A stretch of 33,621 nucleotides of DNA from Oscillatoriales cyanobacterium M59_W2019_021 (GTDB lineage: Bacteria > Cyanobacteriota > Cyanobacteriia > Cyanobacteriales > Geitlerinemataceae): contig DVED01000142.1 in the NCBI GenBank assembly GCA_015295945.1, forward strand, positions 1 through 33,621. The letters are read 5' to 3'. Below the pieces are notes generated by a model that saw nothing but the letters and a program-made list of their open reading frames with translations, was not told the origin of the DNA and did not search any database. Each line of letters begins with the position of its first letter. Positions within the stretch are counted from its first letter, which is position 1. The translations under genes were made by a program, and so were the position numbers. Below are positions 3,835-22,816 of this stretch, piece by piece.

Positions 3835-6603
3835 GTGTTTAGACCTCTCCTTCTCCGTTTAAAAATCCGGCTTCGCGGATGGCAGTTCCTATTAGGAATT
3901 ACCCTCGCCCTTTGCCTTGCCACATTTCCCGCCTTGACCCAAGAACCTACTCTCACTGGGCGAGAATGGGTGCAACAAGGCATCGATCGCTACGAAAACG
4001 AACGATACACCGAAGCGATCGCCCTGTGGCAACACGCCCAACGAGAATTTAACACCACCGGAGACAACTTAGGAGAAGCGTTATCGCTGAGTAATTTATC
4101 CCTGGCATACCAACATTTAGGACAGTGGGAACAAGCCCAACAAACGATCGATCGTAGCTTCAACTTATTACAACAACAGGACGATCTTGACGATCCCACC
4201 TACTTAGAAATCCTGGGAAAAGCCGCGATCGCCCGAGGTCGCCTACACTGGATGCAGGGCAACCCCGACACCGCCCTCGATACCTGGAAACAAGCCGAAA
4301 CCGCCTACTGTCAAGCCGGAAGCGGATCGGGCGTTCTTCGCAGTTGGCTCAACCAGGCTCAAGCGCTACAATCGTTGGGGTTGAATCGCCAAGCCCACGA
4401 TCGCCTGCAACAAGTCTACACCCTGCTACAATCCCCAGATAGCCAGACTTGCGCCTTTGCCGACACCTTCGATCCCGCCTTGCGAATTGTGGGATTGCGA
4501 ACCTTGGGACAATCCTTGCGGCGATTGGGTTTCCTAGAACGAGATGGCGAACGCTTGGGATCTGTAGAAGTCTTGCAAGCCAGCTTGGAACTGACGCGAC
4601 AATTTGCCCTTGCCGAAGCCGAACCTGCCGTCTGGCTGGAATTGGGCAACACCCAACGCGCCCTATATGAGAAAATTCGAGCGATGGGGAAACCCTCTAC
4701 CGCCGCCTCCTACGCCGACGAAGCCACGCAAGCTTACGATCGCGCCGCCACCGCCCCCAACGCCGAAATCGCCCTGCAAGCCCAACTCAACCGCCTCAAT
4801 TTGGACGTTGCTACGGGAAACCCGGCGGGTATCGCCAATTGGCAGCCAATTCGGCAACAGATCGATCGCCTGCCCCCCAGTCGCCAAAGCATCTACGCTC
4901 AACTCAACTTAGCTTGGAGTTTAACCTGCTTCCAAATTCCTAACGTTCCCTCCTGCGGCGAGTCTGAGGAACAACCGCCCGCAACTGAAAATCTTACCCC
5001 CACCGAAATCGCCGAAATCGTAGCAACCGCCGCCCAAACTGCCAAATCGATCGCCGATCCCGCCGCCGAATCCTATGCCCTCGGGCAGTTGGGCGAACTC
5101 TACGAAGCCACCGGAAACCCCACCGCCGCCGCCGAGTTGACGCAGCAAGCCTTACACCGCGTGGAAGGGTTGCAATTTCTCGAAATCCGCTACCGTTGGG
5201 AGTGGCAATTGGGGCGCTTATTGCGAAACCAGGGGAAAATCGAAGATGCGATCGCCGCTTACGAAACCGCCGCCGCCTCTCTGAAATCGGTACGGAGCGA
5301 CTTACTCACCGTAAATGCCGACATTCAGTTTGCCTTTCGCGATCGCGTCGAACCCTTCTATCGGCAGTTGGTGGAACTGCTACTGCCCGCTAACGACCCC
5401 CAACCGCCCCAATTCAACCGCCAAAAAGCCCTTTACTACGTCGAAGAAATTCAATTGGCGGAATTGGAAAACTTTCTGCGGTGCAGTTTGGAAACCTTGG
5501 AAGCCATGCCGGGTGACAACTCCAGCGATGCTATTGCTCGACTCATGAGACGAATCGATCGCCTCTTGCAAGACGACGCCGCCTTAGTCTATCCCATCTT
5601 ATTGCGCGATCGCGTTGCCGTTCTGTTCAAACTCCCCGACAGCGACGATTTAGGCTACTACACCTACGCGATCAACCAAACCGACGCCCAAACCACCTTA
5701 AGAAGACTGCGAACCAGTCTCCTCAAACTCAACCGTCCCGAAGATCGCGTTCTTCAATCCCGCAAAGTGTACCAATGGTTTGCCCCCTTATTTGACACTT
5801 ATCTCCCCTCACATCCCGGCATTCAAACCCTTGTCTTCGTCCTCGATGGCGAATTGCGGAACATTCCTATCGCTGCCTTGCAAGACGATTCCGGTCGCTA
5901 CGTCGTCCAACGAGATTACGCGATCGCCGTTTTTCCCAGTTCCCAACTCTTCGACATCGCCGCCTCTCCCCATAACTTTCAAGTGTTAGGGGCAGGCATC
6001 ACCCAACAACTTACCGTCGGCGACTTACCCCCCTTTAGCGCCTTGGCCGAAGTTGAAGCCGAAGTTGCCGCCGTCTCCTCCGTCGATCCCCTCATCGATG
6101 CAGAATTCACCGAACAAAACTTAGAACAGTGGGTCGATAAGCGCGACTTTTCCATCGTCCATCTCGCTACCCACGGCAACTTCAGTTCCGATCCCGACGA
6201 AACCTACCTCCTCGTCCACGGCATCGATCCCGACAAACCCGCCGGAGAACTCCTCAAAGCCAACGAACTCGATCGCCTCTTGCGCGATCGCACCCGCGAT
6301 CGACCCCTGGATTTGCTGGTTCTCAGCGCTTGCGAAACCGCCGAAGGCGACAACCGCGCCACCTTGGGATTGGCAGGCTTAGCCGTTCGCGCCGGAGCCA
6401 AAAGTACCCTCGCCACCCTTTGGCAAGTCAGCGATCGCTCCACCGTAAAACTGATGGAACAATTCTACCGCCAACTGCAACAAAACCCGCGATCGACCAA
6501 AGCCCAAGCCCTCCACCTCGCCCAAAACGCCCTCCTAACCGATCCCAACTTCGACAATCCCTTCTTCTGGGCGCCTTACATCTTGGTCGGAAATTGGCGG
6601 TAA
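3835..6603 (+). CDS. TPR-CHAT protease, exported or membrane-anchored
   Basis: The 922-residue protein starts with a basic stretch and a hydrophobic segment (about residues 15-35, LLGITLALCLATFPALTQ), a likely signal peptide or anchor. Residues about 45-520 are alpha-helical TPR-like repeats such as GEALSLSNLSLAYQHLGQWEQA. The C-terminal part is a CHAT domain, a caspase-like peptidase fold, with catalytic His780 in HLATHG and Cys833 in LSACETA, followed by LAVRAGAKSTLATLWQVSD and the closing FFWAPYILVG. The cysteine-histidine dyad is intact. Long TPR-CHAT proteins are common in cyanobacteria, and CHAT proteases elsewhere act in gasdermin and type III-E CRISPR defence, but no gasdermin or CRISPR partner is seen here. 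GTG at 3835 gives the full signal segment; no Shine-Dalgarno sequence is evident. The substrate is unknown. Confidence 0.88.
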   Translation: MFRPLLLRLKIRLRGWQFLLGITLALCLATFPALTQEPTLTGREWVQQGIDRYENERYTEAIALWQHAQREFNTTGDNLGEALSLSNLSLAYQHLGQWEQAQQTIDRSFNLLQQQDDLDDPTYLEILGKAAIARGRLHWMQGNPDTALDTWKQAETAYCQAGSGSGVLRSWLNQAQALQSLGLNRQAHDRLQQVYTLLQSPDSQTCAFADTFDPALRIVGLRTLGQSLRRLGFLERDGERLGSVEVLQASLELTRQFALAEAEPAVWLELGNTQRALYEKIRAMGKPSTAASYADEATQAYDRAATAPNAEIALQAQLNRLNLDVATGNPAGIANWQPIRQQIDRLPPSRQSIYAQLNLAWSLTCFQIPNVPSCGESEEQPPATENLTPTEIAEIVATAAQTAKSIADPAAESYALGQLGELYEATGNPTAAAELTQQALHRVEGLQFLEIRYRWEWQLGRLLRNQGKIEDAIAAYETAAASLKSVRSDLLTVNADIQFAFRDRVEPFYRQLVELLLPANDPQPPQFNRQKALYYVEEIQLAELENFLRCSLETLEAMPGDNSSDAIARLMRRIDRLLQDDAALVYPILLRDRVAVLFKLPDSDDLGYYTYAINQTDAQTTLRRLRTSLLKLNRPEDRVLQSRKVYQWFAPLFDTYLPSHPGIQTLVFVLDGELRNIPIAALQDDSGRYVVQRDYAIAVFPSSQLFDIAASPHNFQVLGAGITQQLTVGDLPPFSALAEVEAEVAAVSSVDPLIDAEFTEQNLEQWVDKRDFSIVHLATHGNFSSDPDETYLLVHGIDPDKPAGELLKANELDRLLRDRTRDRPLDLLVLSACETAEGDNRATLGLAGLAVRAGAKSTLATLWQVSDRSTVKLMEQFYRQLQQNPRSTKAQALHLAQNALLTDPNFDNPFFWAPYILVGNWR

Positions 6604-9328: not shown

Positions 9329-10108
9329 GTGGATACACCGATCAAACTGGATTTTCTCGATTTGGGATTGGCGTTGGGAATGATCGCCCTTGCCATCGGG
9401 TTGTCGGCGTGGCAGCGTTTGGGATTGGCGGGAAGTTTGGCACTGGCAGCAGCACGGGCGATCATCCAATTGTTGATGCTGGGCATCGTTCTCGAGTTCG
9501 TCTTTGCCGGGAAACAGCCGCTTTTGGTGGTGGGTTTCCTGCTGCTGTTATTAACCCTAGCAGCGATCGCGACCCGCAACCGCATCAGTCGGAAAATTCC
9601 CCGCTTATTCCCCGTTGTCTGGGTTGCCCTGTTTGCCAGCACAGCGATCGCGTTACTCTATACTCAGGTATTCGTCCTGCGCCAACCCGAAGCCTGGATC
9701 GATCCGCGCTATGCCATCACCTTTGGGGGGCTGATTCTGGGCAATACCCTCAACGGCGGAGCGATCGCCGGAGAACGGTTCGTCAGCAGCCTTCAGAACA
9801 ATCCCTGGGAAATCGAAACCCACCTGTGTTTGGGGGCAACTCCCCAACAAGCGATCGATCGCTATCGCCGGGACGCCATTCGATCGGGATTTCTCCCCAC
9901 CTTAAATGCCACCATGACCGTAGGATTGGTCGCCCTTCCCGCGCTGACAGGCGGTCAACTCCTGGGCGGCATCTCTCCCTTAACCGCCGTCGCCTATCAA
10001 ATTGTCGTGGCATTGATGTTAATGCTTGCCAACCTCATCGGTACGGTGGCGATCGTCAACGGTTTATCGAAACTCGTATTTGACGAGGGCGATCGATTGA
10101 AATTCTAA
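9329..10108 (+). CDS. FetB/UPF0014-family ABC transporter permease
   Basis: The 259-residue membrane protein has about seven hydrophobic segments and the family signatures AAARAIIQLLMLGIVL near the N-terminus, TLNGGAIAGERF mid-protein, and LGATPQQAIDRYRRDAIRSGFLPTLN read across the EAA-like cytoplasmic loop. This is the FetB/YbbM family, permease of an iron-export ABC transporter in E. coli. The partner ATPase FetA is not adjacent and must be encoded elsewhere if the system works. GTG at 9329 is the longest reasonable start; the GGAG that overlaps it is too close to be its ribosome site, so the start is not certain. Metal export is inferred from the family. Confidence 0.85.
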   Translation: MDTPIKLDFLDLGLALGMIALAIGLSAWQRLGLAGSLALAAARAIIQLLMLGIVLEFVFAGKQPLLVVGFLLLLLTLAAIATRNRISRKIPRLFPVVWVALFASTAIALLYTQVFVLRQPEAWIDPRYAITFGGLILGNTLNGGAIAGERFVSSLQNNPWEIETHLCLGATPQQAIDRYRRDAIRSGFLPTLNATMTVGLVALPALTGGQLLGGISPLTAVAYQIVVALMLMLANLIGTVAIVNGLSKLVFDEGDRLKF

Positions 10109-10204
10109 TGGGTAATGGGTAATGGGTAATCGGGAATTGGCGAGGAAGAACTAACCACTAACCACTAACCACTACCAAATGACAAATGACCAATGACTGA
10201 TGAC
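10106..10204. repeat. Heptameric repeats between fetB and NADAR, containing stop and start codons
   Basis: Four TAATGGG-type heptamers begin at the fetB TAA stop codon (10106). Next come three TAACCAC units (10152-10172), then AAATGAC, AAATGAC, CAATGAC and TGATGAC in unbroken 7-bp phase (10177-10204). The ATG of the NADAR gene (10200) lies within the last heptamer. No Shine-Dalgarno sequence is visible in the repeats. Confidence 0.85.
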
Positions 10205-10664
10205 CATCTATTTTTACAAAGTCTATAACCCATACGGTTGTTTTTCCAACTTTTCCCCCCACGGCATTCATTTGGATGGGAAAGATTGGCAAACGGTGGA
10301 GCATTACTACCAAGCCCAAAAATTTAAGGGAACGGCGGACGAATGGGTCATGCGGGAAATTTGGCAGGCACCGACGCCGGAAGAGGCGGCAAGATTGGGA
10401 CGGGATAGCTGTCGGACTTATCGTGAGGATTGGTCGGAGGCGAAAACCACCGTCATGCGCCGAGCCGTCTTCACCAAGTTTCTCACCCATGGGGAGATTC
10501 AAGCGGTCTTACTGGGGACGGGGGACGAGGAAATTGTCGAGGACTCCCCCAGGGATGATTTCTGGGGGTGCGGGGCGGACAGAACCGGACAAAACCATCT
10601 GGGCAAAATTCTGATGAGCGTCCGGGATGAAATTCGGCAAATGAGGCGAGTGGATCGTCCCTGA
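10200..10664 (+). CDS. NADAR/YbiA-like N-glycosidase family protein
   Basis: The 154-residue protein is a full-length NADAR domain. Visible family motifs are GCFSNFSPHGIHLDG, the QTVEHYYQAQKF helix, and C-terminal DDFWGCGADRTGQNHLGKIL. Known members include YbiA and plant COG3236, which hydrolyse reactive riboflavin-pathway intermediates, and others that remove ADP-ribose from guanine in DNA. No DarT-like toxin is next to it, so a housekeeping damage-control role is at least as likely as antitoxin or anti-phage function. ATG at 10200 lies in the heptameric repeat and has no clear ribosome site. Confidence 0.88.
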   Translation: MTIYFYKVYNPYGCFSNFSPHGIHLDGKDWQTVEHYYQAQKFKGTADEWVMREIWQAPTPEEAARLGRDSCRTYREDWSEAKTTVMRRAVFTKFLTHGEIQAVLLGTGDEEIVEDSPRDDFWGCGADRTGQNHLGKILMSVRDEIRQMRRVDRP

Positions 10665-11329
10665 GATCGCGACTAAAGATCGCTTGTGGGTTGTTTTTAA
10701 GATACCATAAGAATATCTAAGAATACATGGGGATCGGCTCTGAAACTGCACGTCAATTGTGGCAAGTTCGATCGATCGGGGTGGTGAGATCGAGATCCCA
10801 TGATTCGATAAACTCTTCCCGAACCGATCGCTGGAAGAACGCAACGTACAGTTTGGGAAATCCAATTCTCGGTGGGGTGCAAGAGAAAATCGTCACGGGG
10901 ATCGGGAAGCGATCGCCAAATGTAGCGCCCTAACCCTTGCTCCCGAATTAGCGTAGAGACGATCAAGATCGGGCGATCGACCCGAAACAGCCGCGTCACT
11001 CGAGATATAATAACTAATATTAACATATGAGAACGGAATTGATTTCCTATAATGTTGAAACACCGATCGTCAAATCGGCTTGATTGACAAGCGGATATGA
11101 CAATCCTGAATGATGCTGTCATCATTTGATCGGGTCAATCCTTCAAAAACAGAGAGCGGGAAGAGTCGGAAGAAGGAAAAGAAAGCCCGAACTCCCCGCT
11201 GCGACCCAAAAGAGGAATCCCAGGGGTGGAGGGAAGTTTTGCAGCTGTCCTCCGAACTCCACACTTCTCACTCTTCCAATAGACGGGGAACTTTCTTTAA
11301 AAATCGGGAATAGTAAAGGTTGAAGCGGG
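10665..11329. other. Long intergenic region upstream of the GAF kinase
   Basis: No convincing gene is visible in these 665 bp; open frames on both strands have low-complexity, Arg/Ser-rich translations. A TATAAT at 11048-11053 could be a -10 element for the kinase, which would give a leader of about 270 nt, but I see no good -35 element. The stretch 11150-11300 is purine-rich with several possible stems and could hold a leader or small RNA. I do not recognise an RNA family. Confidence 0.4.
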
Positions 11330-14104
11330 ATGGAATATAACGTACAAACGCAGCAAAAACAATTAGAGCGGGAAGTTTTACTGCACCGGATTGCCAACCG
11401 CATTCGACAATCGTTAGAACTTAAAGAGATTTTAAGTACCACCGCCGCCGAAGTGAGATCGGTCTTAAGAACTGATCGAGTGATGGTCTATCGATTTTAC
11501 CCCGACGGCAGCGGCAAAGTCATTGCCGAATCGATTTGGAAACAGCGCTTGCCCTCTCTTCTCGGGTTGAACTTTCCCGCCGACGATATTCCCGAAGAAG
11601 CGCGAGAGCAGTTTGTCAAGAGGCGGGTGCGATCGATCGTCGATCGGCAAGCGGGAACCATCGGTTGGAGTCCGCTGATTTCCGAAGAGAGTTCCATGGG
11701 AGGACTGGGGGAGTGGGAAAACACCACTCGTCCGCCGATCGACTATCGCCCCCTCGATCCGTGCCACCTCGACTATTTAAATGCCATGGGGGTAGCCTCT
11801 TCGTTAGTCGTCCCGATTTCCCTCGAATCGGATTTGCAGACGGGGACGGCGCGTCCGCTTCCCCAATTGTGGGGGTTGTTAGTCTCCCACCATTCCGAAC
11901 CGCGACCGATTTCCCCAGACGACTTAGATCTGGTGCAGATGGTTGCCGATCGCGTGTCCATCGCCATCGCCCAATCCACCCTTCTCAGCCAAGCACGCGC
12001 TAAAAGCCAACGGGAACTCACTATCAACCGCATTTCCACCCTCCTCCACGCTCAACCGACGGTGGAACTGCAAGCGGCACTAGAAGCCACGGTGGACGCC
12101 CTGCAAGGCATTGGCGGCAGACTCTATCTGAAGGCAGAGCGGCAATTGTTCGTCTGCGGCGAGCAACCCCAATTGACCGATCCCGTCAAACTCGAGGAGG
12201 TGTGGGGGGAAGACTTTCCGCGAGATGCTCAAGCGGTTTGCCAAGTCCGGGCGATCGCCGATTTGTTCCAAGATCCCCTATTTGACGCCTCGATGGCAGC
12301 ATTTGAACCGACCGTCATTCGCGGTTTGTTGATCGTGTCCTTATCCTACCGCCAACAGCATCTCGGCTACCTGAGTATTTTTCGCGCCAGCGTCACCACG
12401 GAGCGATTGTGGGCGGGACAATTTAACCCAGACGAAAAGCAAGTGCGTCCCCGGCGGTCTTTTGAAATCTGGCGGGAACGACAGCAAAATCGAGCGCCAG
12501 CGTGGACTCCGGAGGAATTGGAACTCGCTCGTGCCCTCGGCGAGCAGTTTGCCATGGCGATCCAGCAATACCAGCTTTACCAAGAAGTGCGATCGCTCAA
12601 CACCACGTTGGAATTGCAAGTGCAAGAACGCACCGCCAAATTGCAACAGGCGTTGGAGTTCAGCCAACTGCGCAAGCAAATTACCGATCGAATTCGCAGT
12701 ACCCTGAACTTGCCAACGCTGCTGGAGACCATCGTGCGGGCAGTCAGATCGGTTCTCGATACCGATCGCGCCGTCATCTACCAAATCCACCCCGATAGTT
12801 CCCCCGAGAATCCTGGCGATGTCATCGTCGAAGACGTACGGGGAGGTTGGTCGTCGGTTTTGGGAGTGCAAGAACCCAACAGTTGTTTTGCCGAGGACAA
12901 CGAAGTCGATCGCACGCATCAAGCGATTCGTCACTTTGAAGCCGGTCAAATTCGCGTTGTCGGCAATGTCGAAGTCGAAGTTGCCAATGCCTGTTACCGC
13001 CAGTTTTTACAATCCTTGCAGGTGAAAGCGTGTTTGGTGGTTCCCATCCGTCGGGAGTGGGAATCGCAAGTGTGGGGATTGCTAATCGTTCACGAATGCC
13101 GATCTCCCCGCACGTGGCAGCCATCGGAAATCGACCTGCTCGAGCAACTAGCCAATCAAGCCGCGATCGCCATCGGACAGGCGGAACTCTACGAACAAAG
13201 CCAACAAGCTACGGAAACGGCACAAGCCGAAGCGGAACGCGCCCGATTGGCGCTCGAAGAGTTGAAACAGGCACAAAGCCAACTGATCCAAAGCGAAAAA
13301 ATGTCCAGTCTCGGTCAATTGGTAGCGGGGGTGGCGCACGAAATTAACAATCCCGTCAATTTTATCTACGGCAATATTCGACATACCCACGAGTACGTTC
13401 AAGACTTGATGAAACTGCTCGAGTGCTACCAGAAATATTATCCGCAACCCCATGAAGAAATTGAGACACTCGCGGATGAGATCGACCTCGATTTTCTGTT
13501 GGAGGATCTGCCGAAAATGCTCGATTCTATGAAGCTAGGCGCCGATCGCATCCGCCATATCGTCTTATCACTGCGGAACTTTTCTCGCCTCGATCGCGCG
13601 GAAATGAAACCTGTCGATATTCACGAAGGTATTGATGGAACCTTGCTGATCTTGCAGTATCGGTTAAAGGCAAGAGCCGAACGGTGCGAAATTAAAGCAA
13701 TTAAAAACTATGGAGATTTACCGCTTGTAGAATGTTATGCAGGTCAACTCAATCAAGTTTTTATGAACTTAATTAGTAATGGAATTGATGCTATTGAAGA
13801 ACAAATCGCGCGAGGAAAGTGCTATTCTCCCTGTATTGAAGTTCGCACTCAGATGCTGCCTGAAGATCGAGTTTCAATTACAATTTCCGATAATGGTTGT
13901 GGCATGCCTCGTCACACGATCGAGCGAATTTTTGAGCCGTTCTTTACCACGAAACCCATTGGGCTTGGCACGGGATTAGGTTTATCAATTAGCCGTCAAA
14001 TCGTGGTTGAAAAACACGGTGGAAAATTTGAATGTATATCGGAAGTTGATCGAGGAACTAAGTTTATCATTGAAATTCCCAGAATTCAAGCCAATCATCC
14101 ATAA
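11330..14104 (+). CDS. Soluble sensor histidine kinase with three GAF domains, two bilin-type
   Basis: The 924-residue protein has no membrane segment. GAF1 (about 20-215) carries phytochrome-type PADDIP (Asp86) and DPCHLDYL with Cys145-His146 at the canonical bilin-attachment position, then WGLLVSHH. GAF2 (about 235-425) lacks such motifs. A coiled coil leads to GAF3 (about 445-615), which has NSCF (Cys519), NACYRQFL (Cys555-Tyr) and VKACLVVPI, as in cyanobacteriochromes. The kinase follows: H-box VAHEINNPVNF with His670, N-box QVFMNLISNGIDA, G1 ISDNGCGMP, F-box IFEPFFTTKP and G2 GLGTGLGLS. No receiver domain is fused, so the response regulator is elsewhere. Light sensing is inferred from the cysteines; redox or small-ligand GAFs are the alternative. 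It ends 2 bp from convergent ruvC. Confidence 0.9.
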   Translation: MEYNVQTQQKQLEREVLLHRIANRIRQSLELKEILSTTAAEVRSVLRTDRVMVYRFYPDGSGKVIAESIWKQRLPSLLGLNFPADDIPEEAREQFVKRRVRSIVDRQAGTIGWSPLISEESSMGGLGEWENTTRPPIDYRPLDPCHLDYLNAMGVASSLVVPISLESDLQTGTARPLPQLWGLLVSHHSEPRPISPDDLDLVQMVADRVSIAIAQSTLLSQARAKSQRELTINRISTLLHAQPTVELQAALEATVDALQGIGGRLYLKAERQLFVCGEQPQLTDPVKLEEVWGEDFPRDAQAVCQVRAIADLFQDPLFDASMAAFEPTVIRGLLIVSLSYRQQHLGYLSIFRASVTTERLWAGQFNPDEKQVRPRRSFEIWRERQQNRAPAWTPEELELARALGEQFAMAIQQYQLYQEVRSLNTTLELQVQERTAKLQQALEFSQLRKQITDRIRSTLNLPTLLETIVRAVRSVLDTDRAVIYQIHPDSSPENPGDVIVEDVRGGWSSVLGVQEPNSCFAEDNEVDRTHQAIRHFEAGQIRVVGNVEVEVANACYRQFLQSLQVKACLVVPIRREWESQVWGLLIVHECRSPRTWQPSEIDLLEQLANQAAIAIGQAELYEQSQQATETAQAEAERARLALEELKQAQSQLIQSEKMSSLGQLVAGVAHEINNPVNFIYGNIRHTHEYVQDLMKLLECYQKYYPQPHEEIETLADEIDLDFLLEDLPKMLDSMKLGADRIRHIVLSLRNFSRLDRAEMKPVDIHEGIDGTLLILQYRLKARAERCEIKAIKNYGDLPLVECYAGQLNQVFMNLISNGIDAIEEQIARGKCYSPCIEVRTQMLPEDRVSITISDNGCGMPRHTIERIFEPFFTTKPIGLGTGLGLSISRQIVVEKHGGKFECISEVDRGTKFIIEIPRIQANHP

Positions 14105-15586: not shown

Positions 15587-15619
15587 AAAAGCCCGATTTT
15601 CAGAAAAATCGGGCTTTTT
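15587..15619 (+). terminator. Rho-independent terminator of the flavodoxin-like gene
   Basis: AAAAGCCCGATTTT and AAAATCGGGCTTTT form a near-perfect stem with a 3-4 nt loop, followed by a T-run. It lies 36 bp after the stop codon. Because of the A-run on the left, it could also work in the reverse direction. Confidence 0.88.
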
Positions 15620-15896: not shown

Positions 15897-16766
15897 ATGT
15901 TGGACACGGAAATGATGTATCGGGAATTTGAAGACGAGTTTGAAGACGAGTTTGAGGACGAATACGAAGACGAATTTGAGGGCGAATTTGAGGACGAATT
16001 TGAAGACGAGTTTGAAGACGAATTTGAGGGCGAATTTGAAGACGAGTTTGAAGACGAATTTGAGGGCGATTATGAAAGCAAGCGCGATCGCCGACGGAAA
16101 CGACGCCGGAGAGGTTTGAAACGGTTCGGCAGTTTCTTCAAAAAATTAGGTGGTATTGCCAAAAAAGTCGCCCCGATCGCGGCTCGAGTTGTCGGCACAG
16201 CCGTTGGCGGACCCGGCGTGGGAGCGGCGGCTGGGAATATTGCCGGAATGCTCGCCCGCGAAGGAGAATACGAGTACGAACTCGAGGGGGAATTTGAAGG
16301 CGAATTCGAGGATGAATTTGAGTACGACTACGAGGGTGTTTCCGAGTACGAAGCCGCCGTTGCCGACGTGCTAGCTGATGCTGCCAGTAAAGTCAGTAGC
16401 GAAGCCGAAGCCGAAGCCCTCGCTGGCGCCTTCACGGCTAAGATTATGCCCATCAAATCCTCGGCGATGGCGCGCGTGCAGCCGGCGATCGTCAACGGTG
16501 CGGCGAAATTCACCCGCGCCATGCGGAAATCGCCCAAAACGCGCATTCTCGTGAAAACCGGTCCGGAAATCGTTCGCCGCACGAACCACGTCCTGAAAAA
16601 GCTAGAAGCCAAAGGGAAGAAACCCACCCGCGCGTTGGCTGGCAAAGTGATGGCGATGCAAACCCAGAAAGTCTTGGGCAGTCCCAAAACTTGCGCCAAG
16701 GCGATCGTCAAATCCTCTCAGAAAGCTCGCAAGATTGCCAAAAAGCCAACTATGGCGATGCGATAA
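15897..16766 (+). CDS. Charge-block protein with acidic EFED repeats and a cationic amphipathic segment
   Basis: I recognise no characterised family. Residues 10-57 are 12 units of Glu-Phe/Tyr-Glu-Asp/Gly (33 of 48 acidic). Residues 62-76 contain 12 Arg/Lys of 15. Residues 73-120 are amphipathic then Gly/Ala/Val-rich (FFKKLGGIAKKVAPIAARVV is part), resembling cationic membrane-active peptides. Residues 122-147 form a second acidic, Tyr/Phe-rich block. Residues about 148-289 are helical and become strongly basic. There is no signal peptide. TAAGGAG at 15883-15889 lies 7 nt before the ATG, a strong start. It is the first of five co-directional genes; the last also has an acidic EFEG-bearing N-terminus. 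The acidic blocks may mask the cationic segment, which is inference. From memory, similar Glu-Phe-rich hypothetical proteins exist in other bacteria. Confidence 0.85.
   Translation: MLDTEMMYREFEDEFEDEFEDEYEDEFEGEFEDEFEDEFEDEFEGEFEDEFEDEFEGDYESKRDRRRKRRRRGLKRFGSFFKKLGGIAKKVAPIAARVVGTAVGGPGVGAAAGNIAGMLAREGEYEYELEGEFEGEFEDEFEYDYEGVSEYEAAVADVLADAASKVSSEAEAEALAGAFTAKIMPIKSSAMARVQPAIVNGAAKFTRAMRKSPKTRILVKTGPEIVRRTNHVLKKLEAKGKKPTRALAGKVMAMQTQKVLGSPKTCAKAIVKSSQKARKIAKKPTMAMR
15924..16067 (+). repeat. Twelve 12-bp tandem repeats coding for EFED units
   Basis: Units of the form GAATTTGAAGAC vary mainly as GAA/GAG and GAC/GGC, while TTT is nearly constant. The unit length is a multiple of three, so gain or loss of units keeps the frame. 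A shorter related block at about 16260-16334 codes for the second acidic region. Confidence 0.9.
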
Positions 16767-16870
16767 CCGGGCGAACTCCCCAGGCGCAGAGCCTCGATCG
16801 GCGTTCGACCTTTTCACGAGACAAGTGCGTGAGCTGACGGCTGACGGCTATGACGAAGGATAAAACGGCA

Positions 16871-18226
16871 ATGTATCGACTTTTCGATCCCCAACTCAAC
16901 GGTTTCGACGCAGAACCGATCGCCTTTTCCCTGACAACCGGGACAGTTGGGCGATCGAGAGCAGAAACCGCACTGCCCAACCTCGACGCTTGGTTGAGGG
17001 TACAAGCGCTCAATGTCACCCGACACGGGGCGGCGTTGCGTCCGTTTCGGTTCGACGAGTTCGGTACTGGGGAAGCCAGTCCTTCGGGCGCCCATATCGA
17101 GGCAGCCAACGAGACGATCGCCAAATTGCGATCGCACCTGTTGAAAATCTCTCGCCAAATGGGAGTCAGCACGGAAATTGCCTTAGAAAATCCCGATTCC
17201 GATCGACTCCGGCAATTCCTCGCTCGCAAAGACTCCGCCCAAGCCTGGGTTCGCGCCGTCGAAAAAATCTGGGACTTCTACTTCGAGTTATTCGGACAGC
17301 GGCAAACGCGCTTCGGCAACTGGCTGATGGGCGCCGATCGCATTGCCTTAGATTGCTATCAGGTCATCTACATGGGGTTAGGGGTTGCCAAATCCATTCC
17401 CGCACCGGGTCCGTATACCTACATGGAAACGGGTTTTTCCCCCGCTTCCTTCCGTCGGGGTATTCCCTTAAGCCGACTGGAAAAACAGATCAATCCCTTC
17501 CCCCTCATTCAACTGCCCTATCACCGATTGGTCAATCCTTGGACGCTGGGGGCAATTTTACACGAGGTTTCCCACGCCCTGCAAACGGATTTGGGGATGC
17601 GAAAAGCCTTACCCAACGCGATCGCCCGTCGCTTGCTAAAAGCCGGGATCGATCGATCGGTGGCGAAGGTGTGGACGCGGTGGCACAGCGAAATTTGGGC
17701 GGATTTATCCGGGTTACTCCTCGGCGGTCCGGAAATGCTGGGTTCGTTGATGGATATCTGCGCGCGATCGCCCAAATCTAGCTTACACTTCCGAGGCAGC
17801 GATCCCCATCCCACGCCCTATCTCCGCATTTTCATCAACGCGGAACTGCTGCGCCGCATGGGTTTCCCCAAAACCGCCCGCCGTTACCTGCGCCTGTGGC
17901 AGAGCCTCTACCCCGATCCTCGTGCCGGGAACATTCCCTCCCCGATGCTGGCAACGTTTCGATCGGCTTGTCAAATTGTCGTCGATACCGTTTGTTTTAC
18001 GCCCTATGCCGAGTTGGGAAACAAAACCCTGGTGCGGGTTATCGGCTTTCAACCGCAGCACCAACGGGCGATCGCCGAAGCCGGAAAGCGCCTCGCAGCC
18101 GGAAACGATCCGGGGATTATTCCCGAACGGTTTTTAATTGGGGCATCCCGTTGGGCGATGGCACGGCAGTTAGCCGAACCGAGGGCAATTACCGAAAACT
18201 TTTATCGTGCGTTGGCGAAGCGGTGA
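16871..18226 (+). CDS. Putative HExxH zinc metalloprotease, unknown family
   Basis: The 451-residue protein has one clear motif: ILHEVSHALQTD with His231-Glu-Val-Ser-His235, then HSEIWADLSGLLLGG, where Glu274 is a plausible third zinc ligand, the gluzincin pattern. A later DPHPTPYLRI resembles the loop that follows such sites. The first 200 residues are mostly helical and unrecognised. No signal peptide or membrane segment is evident. I prefer ATG at 16871, with GAAGGA 10 nt upstream, over the in-frame ATG at 16850, which has no ribosome site. It lies 104 bp after the charge-block gene. It could mature that protein by cutting its acidic blocks (inference). Protease activity itself rests only on the motif. 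Confidence 0.75.
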   Translation: MYRLFDPQLNGFDAEPIAFSLTTGTVGRSRAETALPNLDAWLRVQALNVTRHGAALRPFRFDEFGTGEASPSGAHIEAANETIAKLRSHLLKISRQMGVSTEIALENPDSDRLRQFLARKDSAQAWVRAVEKIWDFYFELFGQRQTRFGNWLMGADRIALDCYQVIYMGLGVAKSIPAPGPYTYMETGFSPASFRRGIPLSRLEKQINPFPLIQLPYHRLVNPWTLGAILHEVSHALQTDLGMRKALPNAIARRLLKAGIDRSVAKVWTRWHSEIWADLSGLLLGGPEMLGSLMDICARSPKSSLHFRGSDPHPTPYLRIFINAELLRRMGFPKTARRYLRLWQSLYPDPRAGNIPSPMLATFRSACQIVVDTVCFTPYAELGNKTLVRVIGFQPQHQRAIAEAGKRLAAGNDPGIIPERFLIGASRWAMARQLAEPRAITENFYRALAKR

Positions 18227-18327
18227 GGGCAATTCGCGATCGCCTTTTGAATTCAATTTTGGGCTGGCGATCGCGACAAACCGCAACCTAGAAACCCCGC
18301 CAGCCAAATGTGCAAGGAGAAATAACG

Positions 18328-20091
18328 ATGATAACTTTTCGCATTCGCGGTCGAGTCGTCAAGCTCGTAGAAATAACTGAAACCGATGAAAATGGCTCCG
18401 AGCAAACCACACAGATCCCAGAATATGAAGCAAGTCTCCGGATTGAAGTCTGGGACAAAGACGAAAGATTTGACGATCGCCTCGGCAGCGACAAAACGGA
18501 TTCCCAGGGCTATTTTGAGATTCAATTTACCGACGAAGATGTTCGGCAAGAAGATCGAGAATTGGAATGGTTGCCCGATATTTTCTTTCGGGTGTATCGC
18601 GGCAGTCAATTGCTAGGCGATACCCAGGGAGAAGAAGGTCAGCAAATTCTGTGGAATACAGTAATTGATAAATTTAACCCAGAATCGTTGAATCCAAGAC
18701 AACAACTTCGAGTTGGCGAGACGGATTACTATATCCAAGACTTAAACGGTTGGATTATCCCAGAACCGGATCGGGGCGATCGCAAACCCAGTTCTGAAAC
18801 TTCGGACAATGCCTGCAAAGGTCAAGTCGTTGATATTCTACCCACCCTCGATCGCATTTCCCAACTCGGCAGAACGACCGCAGGCACTCCCACCAACCGT
18901 ACGGGCGGATCGCTGCAACAAATTTTCGACAGTGCAGCCCAGCGGGTGTTGGGCAGAACCCTAAGTGCGGACAATATCGCGGCGTTCCGGGCATCCTTGA
19001 GCCAAGCCTTCACCCCCCAAGAAAGCAACGGAAATACCACCTACGTGTGGACTCCAGGCGCTTATACGGTACAAAGCGAACTGGGCGGGGCGCTGACCGG
19101 AGCGCAAGCCAGTTTGTATCATCGCGCCAAAGCTGCCCTCGAGCAAATTATCCCGTTGTTGGATCGGCTTTATGCCCTCGATCCGTCGGCAGACGAGCAG
19201 AATATGGACGCCATTCGGGCGATCGTGCGGACAGAGGCGATCGAGTTAGTCAACGAAATGGGAACTCAGGGCGGGCCCCGCGCTCAGCGTGTCGAAAGTT
19301 TGTTTCAACTGCTCCTGGGGAGTTCCGAAGAGTCGCGACTTCCCGAACAACTCGGCGGACAACTCCAAGACTTGGCAGCCATTTTCGGACTGTCTCGCTC
19401 TCGGATTAATACCGTGGAAGAAGAGCAAAATTACAGCAATTTCTTGATTATTCGAGATTATCTGGTTTCCCTGCGAGGCAGTTGGAATGCGTTTATCGGC
19501 AACTCGGGGGCGGGGGCTTACGTGGGAACGCAACTGGTGTTGCTCTCCCAAGCTTTAGCCGTCGTTGCCGAATCGGTGCAAGAGACGTACCGCATTATGG
19601 AACTGGTGTTCCTCGGACCTGCCGAACGCCAAGCGGTTCAACTGAAGTTCCATCTCGCACGCGCCAACGAAGATGGGTCTTTCCCCTTACCCGACGGCAA
19701 CGATTATACAAATCCCGCGCAACTGACCCCGCCGATGAGCGTGGAAGAGTTACTGTCGTGGGTCGAGGGTTTTGCCACCAAAGAAGGGCCCACCTTAGCG
19801 CGGATGGGCGGCAAATTAGGCGTTGCCAAAGTGCTAGCCCAAACCGCCGATCGCCTGATGGTGTTGGTACAAGCGGCATCCTACGCACCCGTCCAGAATG
19901 CGGCATTCAAGCGTCAGGGGGTCATCTGCGCCCTGCGAGATTTAGCCTTCCAGTTATATGAAGTGAAGCGTTTGGCTCGAGAGTTGATTCCGCCAACGAT
20001 CGGCGATCGCGATGCCGACGACTCCAGGGATATTGTGCGATCGCTACGGGGAGGCGTCGGAAATGATACACAACCCGGATTGTTCGATTAA
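18328..20091 (+). CDS. Protein with transthyretin-like N-terminal domain, unknown C-terminal part
   Basis: The 587-residue product begins with a beta-rich domain (about 1-115): FRIRGRVVKLVE, then LRIEVWDKD, DDRLGSDKTDSQGYFEIQF and DIFFRVYRGSQLLGD, the pattern of transthyretin-like or carboxypeptidase-regulatory beta-sandwiches that mediate binding. Residues about 130-587 are mainly helical, with no motif I recognise. No signal peptide is visible. ATG at 18328 is chosen because AAGGAG (18314-18319) lies 8 nt upstream; the longer GTG at 18310 would contain that site. It follows the metalloprotease by 101 bp. A structural, carrier or receptor-binding role fits the domain but is not shown. Confidence 0.78.
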   Translation: MITFRIRGRVVKLVEITETDENGSEQTTQIPEYEASLRIEVWDKDERFDDRLGSDKTDSQGYFEIQFTDEDVRQEDRELEWLPDIFFRVYRGSQLLGDTQGEEGQQILWNTVIDKFNPESLNPRQQLRVGETDYYIQDLNGWIIPEPDRGDRKPSSETSDNACKGQVVDILPTLDRISQLGRTTAGTPTNRTGGSLQQIFDSAAQRVLGRTLSADNIAAFRASLSQAFTPQESNGNTTYVWTPGAYTVQSELGGALTGAQASLYHRAKAALEQIIPLLDRLYALDPSADEQNMDAIRAIVRTEAIELVNEMGTQGGPRAQRVESLFQLLLGSSEESRLPEQLGGQLQDLAAIFGLSRSRINTVEEEQNYSNFLIIRDYLVSLRGSWNAFIGNSGAGAYVGTQLVLLSQALAVVAESVQETYRIMELVFLGPAERQAVQLKFHLARANEDGSFPLPDGNDYTNPAQLTPPMSVEELLSWVEGFATKEGPTLARMGGKLGVAKVLAQTADRLMVLVQAASYAPVQNAAFKRQGVICALRDLAFQLYEVKRLARELIPPTIGDRDADDSRDIVRSLRGGVGNDTQPGLFD

Positions 20092-20130
20092 AAACCCCAT
20101 CGCTTCATCCATTCAGCCAGGAGATTTGTT

Positions 20131-21255
20131 ATGACCACCGCCGGAGAAAACCGAGAATTTTACGATCGCCTGGGGGCATTTCACGAAAAACTGATCGAAG
20201 ATCTCGCCCCAGAGTTGATCGAAAACCCCCGCCTTGCCGACGCCATCACCGAACGCCTAGAAAGCATCCGCACCCAAACCGAAGCCGATGCCCTCAAAAC
20301 CAAAGCCCCTCCCGATGGTGGATTGGCGGGTTTAGTCGGCATCGGTGCCGAAGCAGCCGGCAATTTAGAGGCAACGCGCTTGCCCCAAGGGGTCGAAGAC
20401 TACGACGAAACCGTAGCCTCCGGGCGCATTTTGGCGATCGCCGATCTCTACTACCTCTACCAGCACGAGCGCATCGGCGTCTTCCGCGTCATGCAGAAGT
20501 TACAGGAACTCTTTAGAGCGGGAACCGTACGATTATCGAGCGGGGAGGGCGCCTACGGACTCTATCGGTTTGATCGCCGCCGCATCCTCCGCTACACCAA
20601 AAAAGAGCGCTTCCAAACCTACCGCCGCGCCCTCGGATACACCACTGCCGCCCCCATGCGCGGCGCCAAACCCAATACCCCATTCCACGGTCAGTTTACC
20701 CAATTTATCGGTGCGGTGGCGGAGTATTGGCGCGATAAACGCATTTCCGACGTGATTCGCGATCGCGCCTACGACCCCAGTTTTGGCAGCGTTGCCACGG
20801 TGCGACGGGCGGGATTGGATTTACGCAACAACCTCAAACACGCCTCCTACGGTCATATCAGCGTTTTTCGCGTGGAGGTGCTGCAACTGCTCGACGAAGC
20901 CTTCCGCATTTTGGGCGCACCGGACGTACTGCGGTTATTTGGGGCAGATAACGCCTGGGATGTCGTCGAAGAAATCATGCGCCGCTACTGCAACCAAGAA
21001 ATCGAAGCCTCCCCGCGCCACCGCATGGCAGTTTCCGGGCGCAATATCATCCGCTGGCTGGCGATCGGACACGTCCTCAAAAGCTCCCAGGCGCAGTTTG
21101 AAGCACTGCTGCAAGAAATTGCCAACGATGCCGAAGAATGGCTCACCAGTGCAGAAACCTTGGGAATTGCCTATCGGGGCGATCGTAAAGCCGTCGTTCC
21201 CATTTCTCCCCGTCGCAATGGTAGTCGGAATTTGAGTAGTGCCGATCGCTTTTAA
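20131..21255 (+). CDS. Conserved-looking protein of unknown function in the five-gene cluster
   Basis: I do not recognise a family for this 374-residue protein. It is Arg-rich and mostly helical, with a Gly/Ala stretch (GGLAGLVGIGAEAAGN, about 64-79) that is too short and polar to be a clear membrane helix. DLYYLYQHERIGVFRVMQKL and VIRDRAYDPSFGSVATVRRA look like ordered core segments. No catalytic motif, signal peptide or repeat is seen. AGGAG (20119-20123) lies 7 nt before the ATG. It follows the transthyretin-like gene by only 39 bp, so both are probably on one transcript. Function can only be approached through its neighbours. Confidence 0.75.
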   Translation: MTTAGENREFYDRLGAFHEKLIEDLAPELIENPRLADAITERLESIRTQTEADALKTKAPPDGGLAGLVGIGAEAAGNLEATRLPQGVEDYDETVASGRILAIADLYYLYQHERIGVFRVMQKLQELFRAGTVRLSSGEGAYGLYRFDRRRILRYTKKERFQTYRRALGYTTAAPMRGAKPNTPFHGQFTQFIGAVAEYWRDKRISDVIRDRAYDPSFGSVATVRRAGLDLRNNLKHASYGHISVFRVEVLQLLDEAFRILGAPDVLRLFGADNAWDVVEEIMRRYCNQEIEASPRHRMAVSGRNIIRWLAIGHVLKSSQAQFEALLQEIANDAEEWLTSAETLGIAYRGDRKAVVPISPRRNGSRNLSSADRF

Positions 21256-21313
21256 AAGCTAAACCCGCCAAACCTTATACGAACACACCTTTGGAAAGGA
21301 AAGAGTACGGAAA

Positions 21314-22816
21314 ATGTTACCCGATCTCCGAAACCTCGATACAGAACTCGAAGAACTCCTAGAGTTCGAGGGTGCTGACCTGGAATTACTGTTAGAAAGC
21401 CCTCTAGAAAATCCCTTCCTCGCTGCCCGAGAATCAGAATTGGAGTGGGAAGAATTAGAAACTCAACCCGAGAGTCCCGCCGAAAATCCTTTCTTGGCAG
21501 AAGGAGAAGCCGGAGCCGAATTTGAAGGAGATTTAACCGCTAACTTTAGTTTGCAGGAGTTTGCCTCTCGAGGCACGCCCGTCCCCTCGCAGTACCGAGC
21601 CAACGTCCGCCGGTTAGCGCAAAACCTCCAGGTTCTCAGGGATCGCCTGGGCGCGCCAATTACCGTGACCTCTGGCTATCGCAGCCCCACCCACAACCAA
21701 CAAGTGAGAGGCGCAACCCGCAGCCAACACCTGCTTGCTAAAGCCGCCGATATTCAAGTCAAAGGCTATACGCCCAGCCAAGTTTACTGCGCGATCGAAA
21801 GCTTGATTCGCCAGGGCAAAATGGTTCAAGGGGGATTGGGAATTTATCGCACCTTCGTTCACTACGACATTCGGGGTTCGAGGGCGCGTTGGAAAGGCAG
21901 CGGTATCTCTGCTTATCCCTCCTGTAATGGCAGTAGTAGCGGCAGTTCGCCCCCCTCAGCAAGTCCGGCATTTGACGTAGCCCGAGCTGTCGTCCGCAAT
22001 CGCGAGTGGGCTCGACGATTGGGGTGGCAAGCCCATTACGACGAGATCGTCCGCCTGCTGCACGATCGACCTTTCACGCCCAACGAAGAAGCATTCGCGG
22101 AGTTGGTCTATCAATGGCAGCGCCAAAATCGCTTGACCCCCGATGGCATTATCGGACCGAATACTTGGGCGAGAATGAAAGCGGCTTTAGGCATCGCTTC
22201 GCCAGGTTCGAGCGGGTCGGGAGGAACGGCAACTGCGTATCCCTACGGTCCGAAGTGGCGATCGCAACGTCCGCCGGGACTGCCCGCCACAGCCCGCACT
22301 GCGAGCCAGAGCGGTGCCGCGTTGCCCGATATCGAACGGGTCGCCCGACAGCACAATTTAGGCGAAACGTTTGTCAAAACTGTCAAGCACTTGGCAACAA
22401 CCGAAAGCGGCGCCATGTATGCCCGTCCAGCTAATATTTTTAACGTTCTTCCCCCTTCCCAACGGGGTGGAAAACCTTACATCAGTGCTTGGGGGGTTTT
22501 CCAATTCAATCGAGATGCTTGGAGAAGCTTGCCCGGTGTGGCTAATACGGCGTTTCCTTGGGAAAGTACGCCCTCCGAAGAAATTACTCGCCCGATTCGC
22601 CGCTATGCAGAACTGTTTGCCGAAGTTCGTCGTGCGGGTGGAACCCCAATTGATGCGGCGCGAGGGATTCGGTTGTGGCATATGCAGCCAAATGGTTTGT
22701 ACAAACCTTATTTGCGTCGGGGCAAACAGTCAGGTTTTTCGGCAGCTTGGCAACAAGTTCCGGCGAAATACCAAGCCCGGATTGATCGCCATTTACGCAA
22801 TGCCGGAATCTTGTAA
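21314..22816 (+). CDS. Multidomain cell-wall hydrolase: M15 peptidase, PG-binding and lysozyme-like domains
   Basis: Residues 1-75 are acidic and low in complexity, with two ENPFL motifs and FEG units recalling the EFED protein upstream. Residues about 78-190 form an M15A-type peptidase: TSGYRSPTHN, then zinc ligands His139 and Asp146 in SQHLLAKAADI and His183 in VHYD. Residues about 220-295 are a peptidoglycan-binding domain (FAELVYQWQRQNRLTPDGII, TWARMKAAL). Residues about 340-500 look lysozyme/transglycosylase-like, with candidate catalytic Glu364 in TTESG and AWGVFQFNRDAW. It could cut both peptide and glycan bonds. There is no Sec signal peptide despite a periplasmic substrate. A purine-rich ribosome site (AAGGAAAGAG) precedes the ATG. 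It is the last gene of the cluster. Confidence 0.83.
   Translation: MLPDLRNLDTELEELLEFEGADLELLLESPLENPFLAARESELEWEELETQPESPAENPFLAEGEAGAEFEGDLTANFSLQEFASRGTPVPSQYRANVRRLAQNLQVLRDRLGAPITVTSGYRSPTHNQQVRGATRSQHLLAKAADIQVKGYTPSQVYCAIESLIRQGKMVQGGLGIYRTFVHYDIRGSRARWKGSGISAYPSCNGSSSGSSPPSASPAFDVARAVVRNREWARRLGWQAHYDEIVRLLHDRPFTPNEEAFAELVYQWQRQNRLTPDGIIGPNTWARMKAALGIASPGSSGSGGTATAYPYGPKWRSQRPPGLPATARTASQSGAALPDIERVARQHNLGETFVKTVKHLATTESGAMYARPANIFNVLPPSQRGGKPYISAWGVFQFNRDAWRSLPGVANTAFPWESTPSEEITRPIRRYAELFAEVRRAGGTPIDAARGIRLWHMQPNGLYKPYLRRGKQSGFSAAWQQVPAKYQARIDRHLRNAGIL

Follow-up and report, generated by a model that had tools for sequence, protein, structure and literature searches.

We examined a 33,621-nucleotide stretch of DNA, referred to here as the window, which forms contig DVED01000142.1 of the cyanobacterium Oscillatoriales cyanobacterium M59_W2019_021 (a genome of 5 Mb, 99.99% complete, in 212 contigs). 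It holds a cluster of five genes, A to E, of which the first four belong to a widespread conserved unit and the fifth occupies a position filled by different enzymes in different genomes. The open reading frames (ORFs) all lie on the plus strand, at 15897-16766 (A), 16850-18226 (B), 18310/18328-20091 (C), 20131-21255 (D) and 21314-22816 (E). Gene C most likely starts at the ATG at 18328, which has AAGGAG in front of it, although the frame is also open from a GTG at 18310; with the ATG the gaps are 83, 101, 39 and 58 bases, so that the one-strand, short-gap arrangement proposed by a first-pass annotation made from the sequence alone is borne out (39-101 bases). That annotation also saw good ribosome sites in front of most genes, and Shine-Dalgarno-like sequences do precede A (AAGGAG), C, D (AGGAG) and E (GGAAAGGAAAGAG), whereas none is obvious for B. 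A consensus scan placed an intrinsic-terminator-like hairpin with a 14-pair stem between an upstream flavodoxin-like gene and gene A (15587-15618, no strand assigned), which is likely to be the left border of the unit; the scan of the region gave 11 sites against 10.6 in shuffled sequence, and this one has the longest stem. None of the five proteins has a Sec-like N-terminus by a simple hydropathy test, in agreement with the earlier observation. None of A to D reaches the cut-off for a family in Pfam or NCBIfam or matches one in PADLOC or PHROGs, an NCBIfam match for D at 13.6 bits against a cut-off of 186 being taken as noise. PADLOC assigned no family to any of eight proteins submitted (A to E, a neighbouring RuvC gene product and the x and D proteins of PGU19).

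Gene A encodes an ampholytic charge-block protein of what we call the first-paralogue type, for which sequence inspection, profiles and library searches gave no family match. An N-terminal acidic block of EFEDEFE repeats (15897-16076; net charge -36 over residues 1-60) is followed by a cationic amphipathic and Gly-rich hydrophobic segment (residues 61-120; 16077-16256), a second acidic block (residues 121-147; 16257-16337) and a conserved, mostly basic C-terminal domain (residues 148-289; 16338-16763). The E-[aromatic]-E-x-E-[aromatic]-E type of pattern occurs 16 times in the whole genome, and 13 of these matches, overlapping one another, lie inside gene A. Members of the family are about 300 residues long and keep the C-terminal domain. 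In a set of 125 A proteins (more than 200 residues, encoded upstream of B) the net charge rises along the chain, its mean per 100 residues being about -26 over the first tenths and +22 over the last. A cationic hydrophobic stretch of 36 residues is present in 124 of the 125, compared with 28 of 125 shuffles. The 60 residues ahead of this stretch are usually acidic (median net charge -16). The window protein, whose stretch is KRDRRRKRRRRGLKRFGSFFKKLGGIAKKVAPIAARVVGTAVGG, has acidic flanks on both sides (-26 and -16). The suggestion that the first protein is a maskable membrane-active component thus stands as a sequence pattern only, as regards the cationic stretch and the acidic sequence before it, and does not extend to a general acidic block after it. 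A GG-P regular expression matched none of the A proteins and a looser version only 24 of them. Two A genes, A and A', stand ahead of B in 54 of the 73 loci described below, and the best match of an A or A' protein in another locus has the same position in 103 of 105 cases, which marks the two as separate ancient paralogues; the window carries only the first type. A search of plasmids with the window A gave no match, which is uninformative because PGU19 does carry A-type genes.

The product of gene B, about 450 residues long, is a putative zinc metallopeptidase without a family match. It carries the HExxH motif that had been noted before, here HEVSH (17561-17575; H238, E239 and H242), followed by a stretch from E281, a candidate third ligand, to D285 (17690-17704). 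These residues and W278 are kept in all 37 aligned B sequences, five of which are only 20-28% identical to the window protein, and the resulting pattern, HExxH...W..E...D, is a complete gluzincin-type signature in which a downstream glutamate is the ligand candidate. Each of the 73 loci has a legible motif, recognised in 66 by a strict regular expression and in seven by eye. An AlphaFold2 model of B (predicted local distance difference test score, pLDDT, 81.5; predicted TM-score 0.83) found no solved structure by Foldseek at E<=0.001, the best VIA Z score being 4.3, which does not show a new fold; no viral structure matched the model at E<=0.001, and a profile search against solved structures gave nothing convincing (best E 0.05).

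Gene C combines an N-terminal transthyretin (TTR)/immunoglobulin (Ig)-like domain with a conserved C-terminal region. The transthyretin-like domain claimed for it scores 20.7 bits in the window, short of the 24.9 bits that Pfam requires, while some orthologues carry TTR, SdrD_B, CarboxypepD_reg or SpaA domains above cut-off, in varying number, before the conserved part; a C profile found nothing convincing among solved structures (best E 0.4). Gene D encodes a highly conserved protein predicted to be all-helical (model pLDDT 74.9), with no membrane-like stretch in the hydropathy test. Against solved structures its profile gave a best E of 0.026, which is not convincing, and neither Foldseek nor VIA-align found a good match, which again does not show a new fold.

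The first lead to the conservation of the cluster was a DNA match of B to D on a Paraburkholderia plasmid, where the gene order is the same. A scan of named genomes with the B alignment then gave 67 loci, which are a sample because the scan used two short peptide patterns. By record title 21 of these are cyanobacterial (including one Vampirovibrio), 18 acidobacterial, 14 actinobacterial and seven chloroflexal, with two each from proteobacteria, planctomycetes and verrucomicrobia and one from an armatimonad, that is eight phyla judged by titles; many loci come from metagenome bins, including all the planctomycete, verrucomicrobial and armatimonad ones, and such titles may misname the host. The working set of 73 loci (the window, L005, L012-L015 and L024-L090; the distant relatives L016-L023 are kept out of the counts) has little redundancy, B proteins being at least 95% identical in one pair only. 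Iterated profiles recognised A in 71 loci, C in 66 and D in 63. All four genes are present in 58, and in 57 of these they lie on one strand in the order A-B-C-D. The exception, L084 (a metagenome-assembled genome of Mycobacterium sp.), has C, D and a further A on the strand opposite to A-B, which may be a rearrangement, a second copy or an assembly fault. Among the remaining 15 loci, 12 are truncated at the end of a contig and three have D with no recognised C. A and B are the most tightly linked, forming 71 adjacent pairs with a median of 24 bases between the genes, and the identity matrices of B, C and D correlate at 0.87, 0.81 and 0.79 over 60 loci, a level reached in none of 500 permutations. 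A-B-C-D is a widespread conserved unit with a fixed order over many phyla. Within the window's own phylum the unit is sporadic, with B in 6 of 386 genomes, counting the window genome and one distant match. A scan of named genomes with C alone gave no match, and, apart from the window genome itself, just one of 58 other genomes of near relatives gave matches to C, all of them short. The homologues resemble the window proteins in lacking Sec-like N-termini by the hydropathy test (0 of 125 A, 0 of 73 B, 0 of 66 C and 0 of 63 D proteins); a hydropathy threshold of 1.6 is passed by 26 of 73 B, 14 of 125 A and two of 66 C proteins, the B stretches being perhaps buried helices.

Gene E does not belong to this conserved set. 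A protein like it was found in only two of the 73 loci, and the idea that all five genes form one set that co-occurs in other genomes holds for the first four and fails for the fifth. In the window E is a putative peptidoglycan hydrolase with an N-terminal acidic tag made of two ENPFLA motifs and EFEG segments (21314-21547), an M15_3 peptidase domain (PF08291; 21557-21868; 71.2 bits against a cut-off of 23.2) and a PG_binding_1 domain whose best stretch is at 22103-22177 (25.9 bits, above cut-off). It also matches M15_2 and the structure 1lbu (E 1.1e-6). Of the three domains previously ascribed to E, M15 and PG-binding lie above the Pfam cut-off. For the lysozyme-like end Pfam gave nothing at E<=0.1, and a two-sequence comparison gave only a weak match (E 0.001), to the region of a different protein from the same position that carries an SLT domain. 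It is this position that is conserved: the genes behind D vary among genomes and encode exchangeable modular enzymes, many of them wall-active, which we refer to as cargo. Twenty cargo proteins, chosen by eye from 83 rows for the first and second ORFs behind D, contain PG_binding_1 (five), OmpA (three) and DUF2272 (two) domains above cut-off, and single cases of M15_4, SLT, Endonuclea_NS_2, M35 and DUF4056; seven of the 20 have no Pfam match at E<=0.01. Their domains have been swapped by recombination among partners. The cargo of L013 matches L028, L029 and L046 in its N-terminal half and L060 in its C-terminal half, and both the OmpA-like module and an unnamed 'RHPER' module have different partners in different cargo proteins. 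Among 25 cargo proteins, E included, Pfam found no common N-terminal domain for trafficking by a known secretion route.

A short tag, acidic or of the FExP type, is common to A and a minority of cargo proteins. It stands at the N-terminus or, in some of the acidic cases, at a more internal place. The acidic EFEG-type segments that had been seen in the first and last genes of the cluster were found in both. In one cyanobacterial subtype A' and cargo both start with an FExP motif, which lies in the first 60 residues of 9 of 108 cargo-position ORFs and of 2 of the remaining 704 ORFs, one of which likewise lies behind D; the tags of A and cargo coincide by locus (6 of 8 against 1 of 55). The wider FExP expression was picked after the A N-termini had been seen and a narrower one gave a non-significant Fisher test (p 0.057), and p-values for the tags are descriptive only because the expressions were tuned on the data. 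In genome G227 there are no more than three WLFExP matches; each lies behind D at a distance of up to about 5 kb, with unrelated genes in front of the last. Another 18 genomes contain five matches, four of which were inspected and lie deep inside proteins or in short frames and are not such N-terminal tags. An acidic-tag score of at least 3, which counts a tag at any place in the protein, was reached by 9 of 100 ORFs in the cargo position and by 7 of the 606 others, three of the seven resembling further cargo by eye; this count excludes rows labelled A, B, C or D and ORFs shorter than 120 residues. An alternative count gave 12 of 65 against 8 of 645, with M20, amidohydrolase and LuxR-type rows removed by regular expression and three A-labelled ORFs downstream of D retained. 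High-GC loci add spurious ORFs to these counts. The exact ENPFLA pattern occurs twice in the window genome outside E, in frames of 9 and 60 residues only, so that no cargo encoded in trans was found with the exact pattern.

Eleven neighbour families, named after their PGU19 copies, recur in at least four loci each. Among them are a small LuxR-type gene (42 of 73 loci), an M20 peptidase (27 of 73) and an Amidohydro_2 gene (23 of 73), the latter two mostly behind D. A further family, with proteins of about 186 residues, is present in 23 loci and in most cases stands between B and C. In the window genome the closest LuxR-type relative stands at the end of another contig, with none of A to D within 10 kb.

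More distant relatives of the core proteins occur in other settings. On rhizobial and Paraburkholderia plasmids (L021, L022 and L023, around 8-16 kb of each) A-like and B-like genes are adjacent and A is built differently, with profile E-values between about 1e-5 and 1e-8 for A and between about 1e-25 and 1e-27 for B; from their sequences we note these as a putative second type of system. A protein near the pair in L023 has an acidic segment and looks like a peptidoglycan-binding protein. A distant B homologue at L016:6776-14926 is flanked by two large proteins whose N-terminal motifs are of the ESPF/SPFL type; one of these proteins shows, by eye, papain-like and trypsin-like regions. On two rhizobial plasmids (L017 and L018) distant B relatives adjoin CHAT genes, L017 also having S8, patatin-like and phospholipase-D-like genes, a neighbourhood of the conflict type. 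Distant D relatives on a Tolypothrix plasmid and a Burkholderia pyrrocinia plasmid (L019:9146-10993; L020:4194-5999 and 9824-10819) adjoin S8 peptidase and peptidoglycan-binding or amidase genes, and D therefore belongs to a wider set of loci.

The first-pass annotation had read the five genes as a released or packaged antibacterial or envelope-remodelling set. Our own preferred reading, to which we give a little less than an even chance, is that A-B-C-D may be the core of an undescribed polymorphic-effector module of which E is the current cargo. Four families without a name in the libraries, kept together over distant phyla beside ever-changing enzymes, make a pattern typical of conflict systems. 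The activation, release and target that we infer for such a module would run as follows. A, with A' where present, would be held inert by its own acidic sequence, and B would clip A, and perhaps also the tags, so that cationic hydrophobic segments are freed which may disrupt a membrane or assemble a carrier. C, with its surface-type Ig/TTR domains, and D could organise or address the complex, and the tag would recruit cargo to A, C or D. The cargo would then cut peptidoglycan, nucleic acid or protein, most likely in competitor bacteria after release, under LuxR-type control in many genomes. A more specific version, which we find doubtful, is a deployment independent of signal peptides in which A and A' would form a carrier, condensate or pore, B would arm it by proteolysis, C and D would address it, and the acidic or FExP tag would recruit interchangeable antibacterial enzymes. 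If true, this deployment principle would differ both from contractile particles and from the numbered secretion systems, would extend over some eight phyla and would address wall-degrading and other enzymes by tags, and the loci would be a source of new peptidoglycan hydrolases and possibly of membrane-active peptides.

We found no description of the cluster in the open-licence literature, the first-pass annotation likewise knew of no such system, and A to D are unnamed in four family libraries; a description may exist elsewhere. The nearest likeness is to polymorphic toxin systems, which, as presented by Zhang et al. (2012; PMC3482391), also set constant parts beside variable, recombining enzyme modules with peptidases and wall-active domains among them. 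As described there, those systems differ in having a long N-terminal trafficking domain, where the present loci have a four-gene core and a short acidic or FExP tag on a minority of cargo. A further difference is that we recognised no immunity gene and no named secretion route at the present loci. For toxins of Photorhabdus virulence cassettes (PVC) the same paper argues that the lack of an immunity gene fits targets other than close kin (PMC3482391), and the lack of a recognised one here would fit non-kin targets likewise. No named system corresponds to the core families or to the way in which core and tag are combined, the functions being predicted.

Several observations weigh against the effector-module reading. 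No immunity gene was recognised among the 11 recurring neighbour families, such genes being so variable that one may be present all the same, and no export route was identified. Tagged cargo was recognised, by the FExP and acidic criteria, in only 15 of the 63 loci with D; a general acidity score showed no shift between 62 cargo and 575 other ORFs (p 0.18), and a looser tag score was passed by 16 of the 63 D proteins themselves. The sequence behind the cationic stretch of A is usually not acidic (median +6.5), and A' was not found elsewhere in the window genome. The peptidase assignment of B, putative as it is, rests on its motif because no solved-fold match was found, and the correlation of the B, C and D matrices can come partly from host relatedness. 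Lastly, M20 and amidohydrolase neighbours fit peptide metabolism as well as they fit conflict.

The main rival is a programmed self-lysis or abortive-infection cassette, in which A would be a holin-like protein unmasked by B and E an endolysin-like enzyme reaching the cell's own wall. Phage holin-endolysin cassettes do pair a protein that looks membrane-active with a wall hydrolase that has no signal peptide; E is similar to endolysins of phages (phrog_894, E 1.7e-32) and lacks a Sec-like N-terminus, A has its cationic hydrophobic stretches, and the two distant B homologues that adjoin CHAT genes, and in one case S8, patatin and PLD genes as well, would suit such a role. However, the cargo also includes nuclease-like, M35 and OmpA modules, domain swapping is commoner in weapons, and PADLOC matched none of A to E. 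A matches no PHROG, and relatives of B and D were absent from the phage and viral collections searched, with none confirmed in viral contigs, on which ground we also rejected a phage origin of the cluster. On balance we consider self-lysis unlikely.

Peptide maturation is less probable again. Here A and A' would be precursors cut by B and trimmed by the M20 peptidase and amidohydrolase, and a LuxR-type regulator would read or control the product. The close A-B linkage and the frequency of these three neighbour genes speak for it, as does the precedent of zincin/FxSxx-COOH systems, in which, according to Kaur et al. (2020; PMC7159879), a zincin-like peptidase stands beside a diversifying substrate-like precursor, one type of which is acidic. 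Compared with the systems described there, A is a large ampholyte that usually comes as two paralogues, and its roughly 300 residues with a conserved C-terminal domain are unlike small precursors. By eye, the 11 recurring neighbour families also include no evident radical-SAM, AP-ATPase or vWA partner of the kind described there (PMC7159879). This reading leaves the tagged wall hydrolases, C and D unexplained.

We attach a similarly low probability to a module serving the producer's own envelope or extracellular matrix, the envelope-remodelling half of the first-pass proposal, in which ampholytic A would build or attach an outer layer while E-type enzymes remodel the wall. Adhesin-type Ig/TTR domains in C of some genomes and the peptidoglycan-binding OmpA and PG_binding_1 modules agree with this, but A to D have no Sec-like N-termini, the cargo is variable, and the distribution is sporadic, as seen for B in the phylum; these points count against it.

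A link to a contractile injection system had also been raised. The contractile sheath (PF04984) was detected in three of five cluster-bearing genomes and in 7 of 15 cluster-free ones (20 genomes in all), and it is missing from the window genome and from G066, a cluster-bearing genome in a single contig, so that we rejected the link as a requirement; none of the 11 neighbour families resembles such a system. There is a likeness to PVC and other extracellular contractile injection system (eCIS) toxins with the eCIS_core domain (DUF4157, PF13699) in the variable enzymes and in an HExxHxxQ-like motif, Q245 being nearly invariant in 31 B proteins. B, in contrast, is a separate gene, has no Pfam match to PF13699 and cannot be aligned with eCIS_core outside the zinc motif: hhalign comparisons of B alignments of 31 and 37 rows with 26 eCIS_core domains, excised by motif from 30 loci, gave probabilities of 0.6-1.6% over 14-17 residues, and we rejected a kinship. 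The phyla with the cluster presumably overlap those with contractile injection systems, which we count in favour of the loci being a cargo set for such a system encoded elsewhere in the genome, as we do the sheath matches in three of the five genomes. The two sheath-free genomes, the comparable frequency of sheaths without the cluster and the failure of B to align make that proposal very improbable.

No RNA families or tRNAs were detected in the window. Upstream of the cluster it contains an IS200-like Y1 transposase (471-911), a TPR-CHAT protein (3835-6603) and, 1.8 kb ahead of gene A, a phytochrome-type histidine kinase with PHY and GAF domains (11330-14104).

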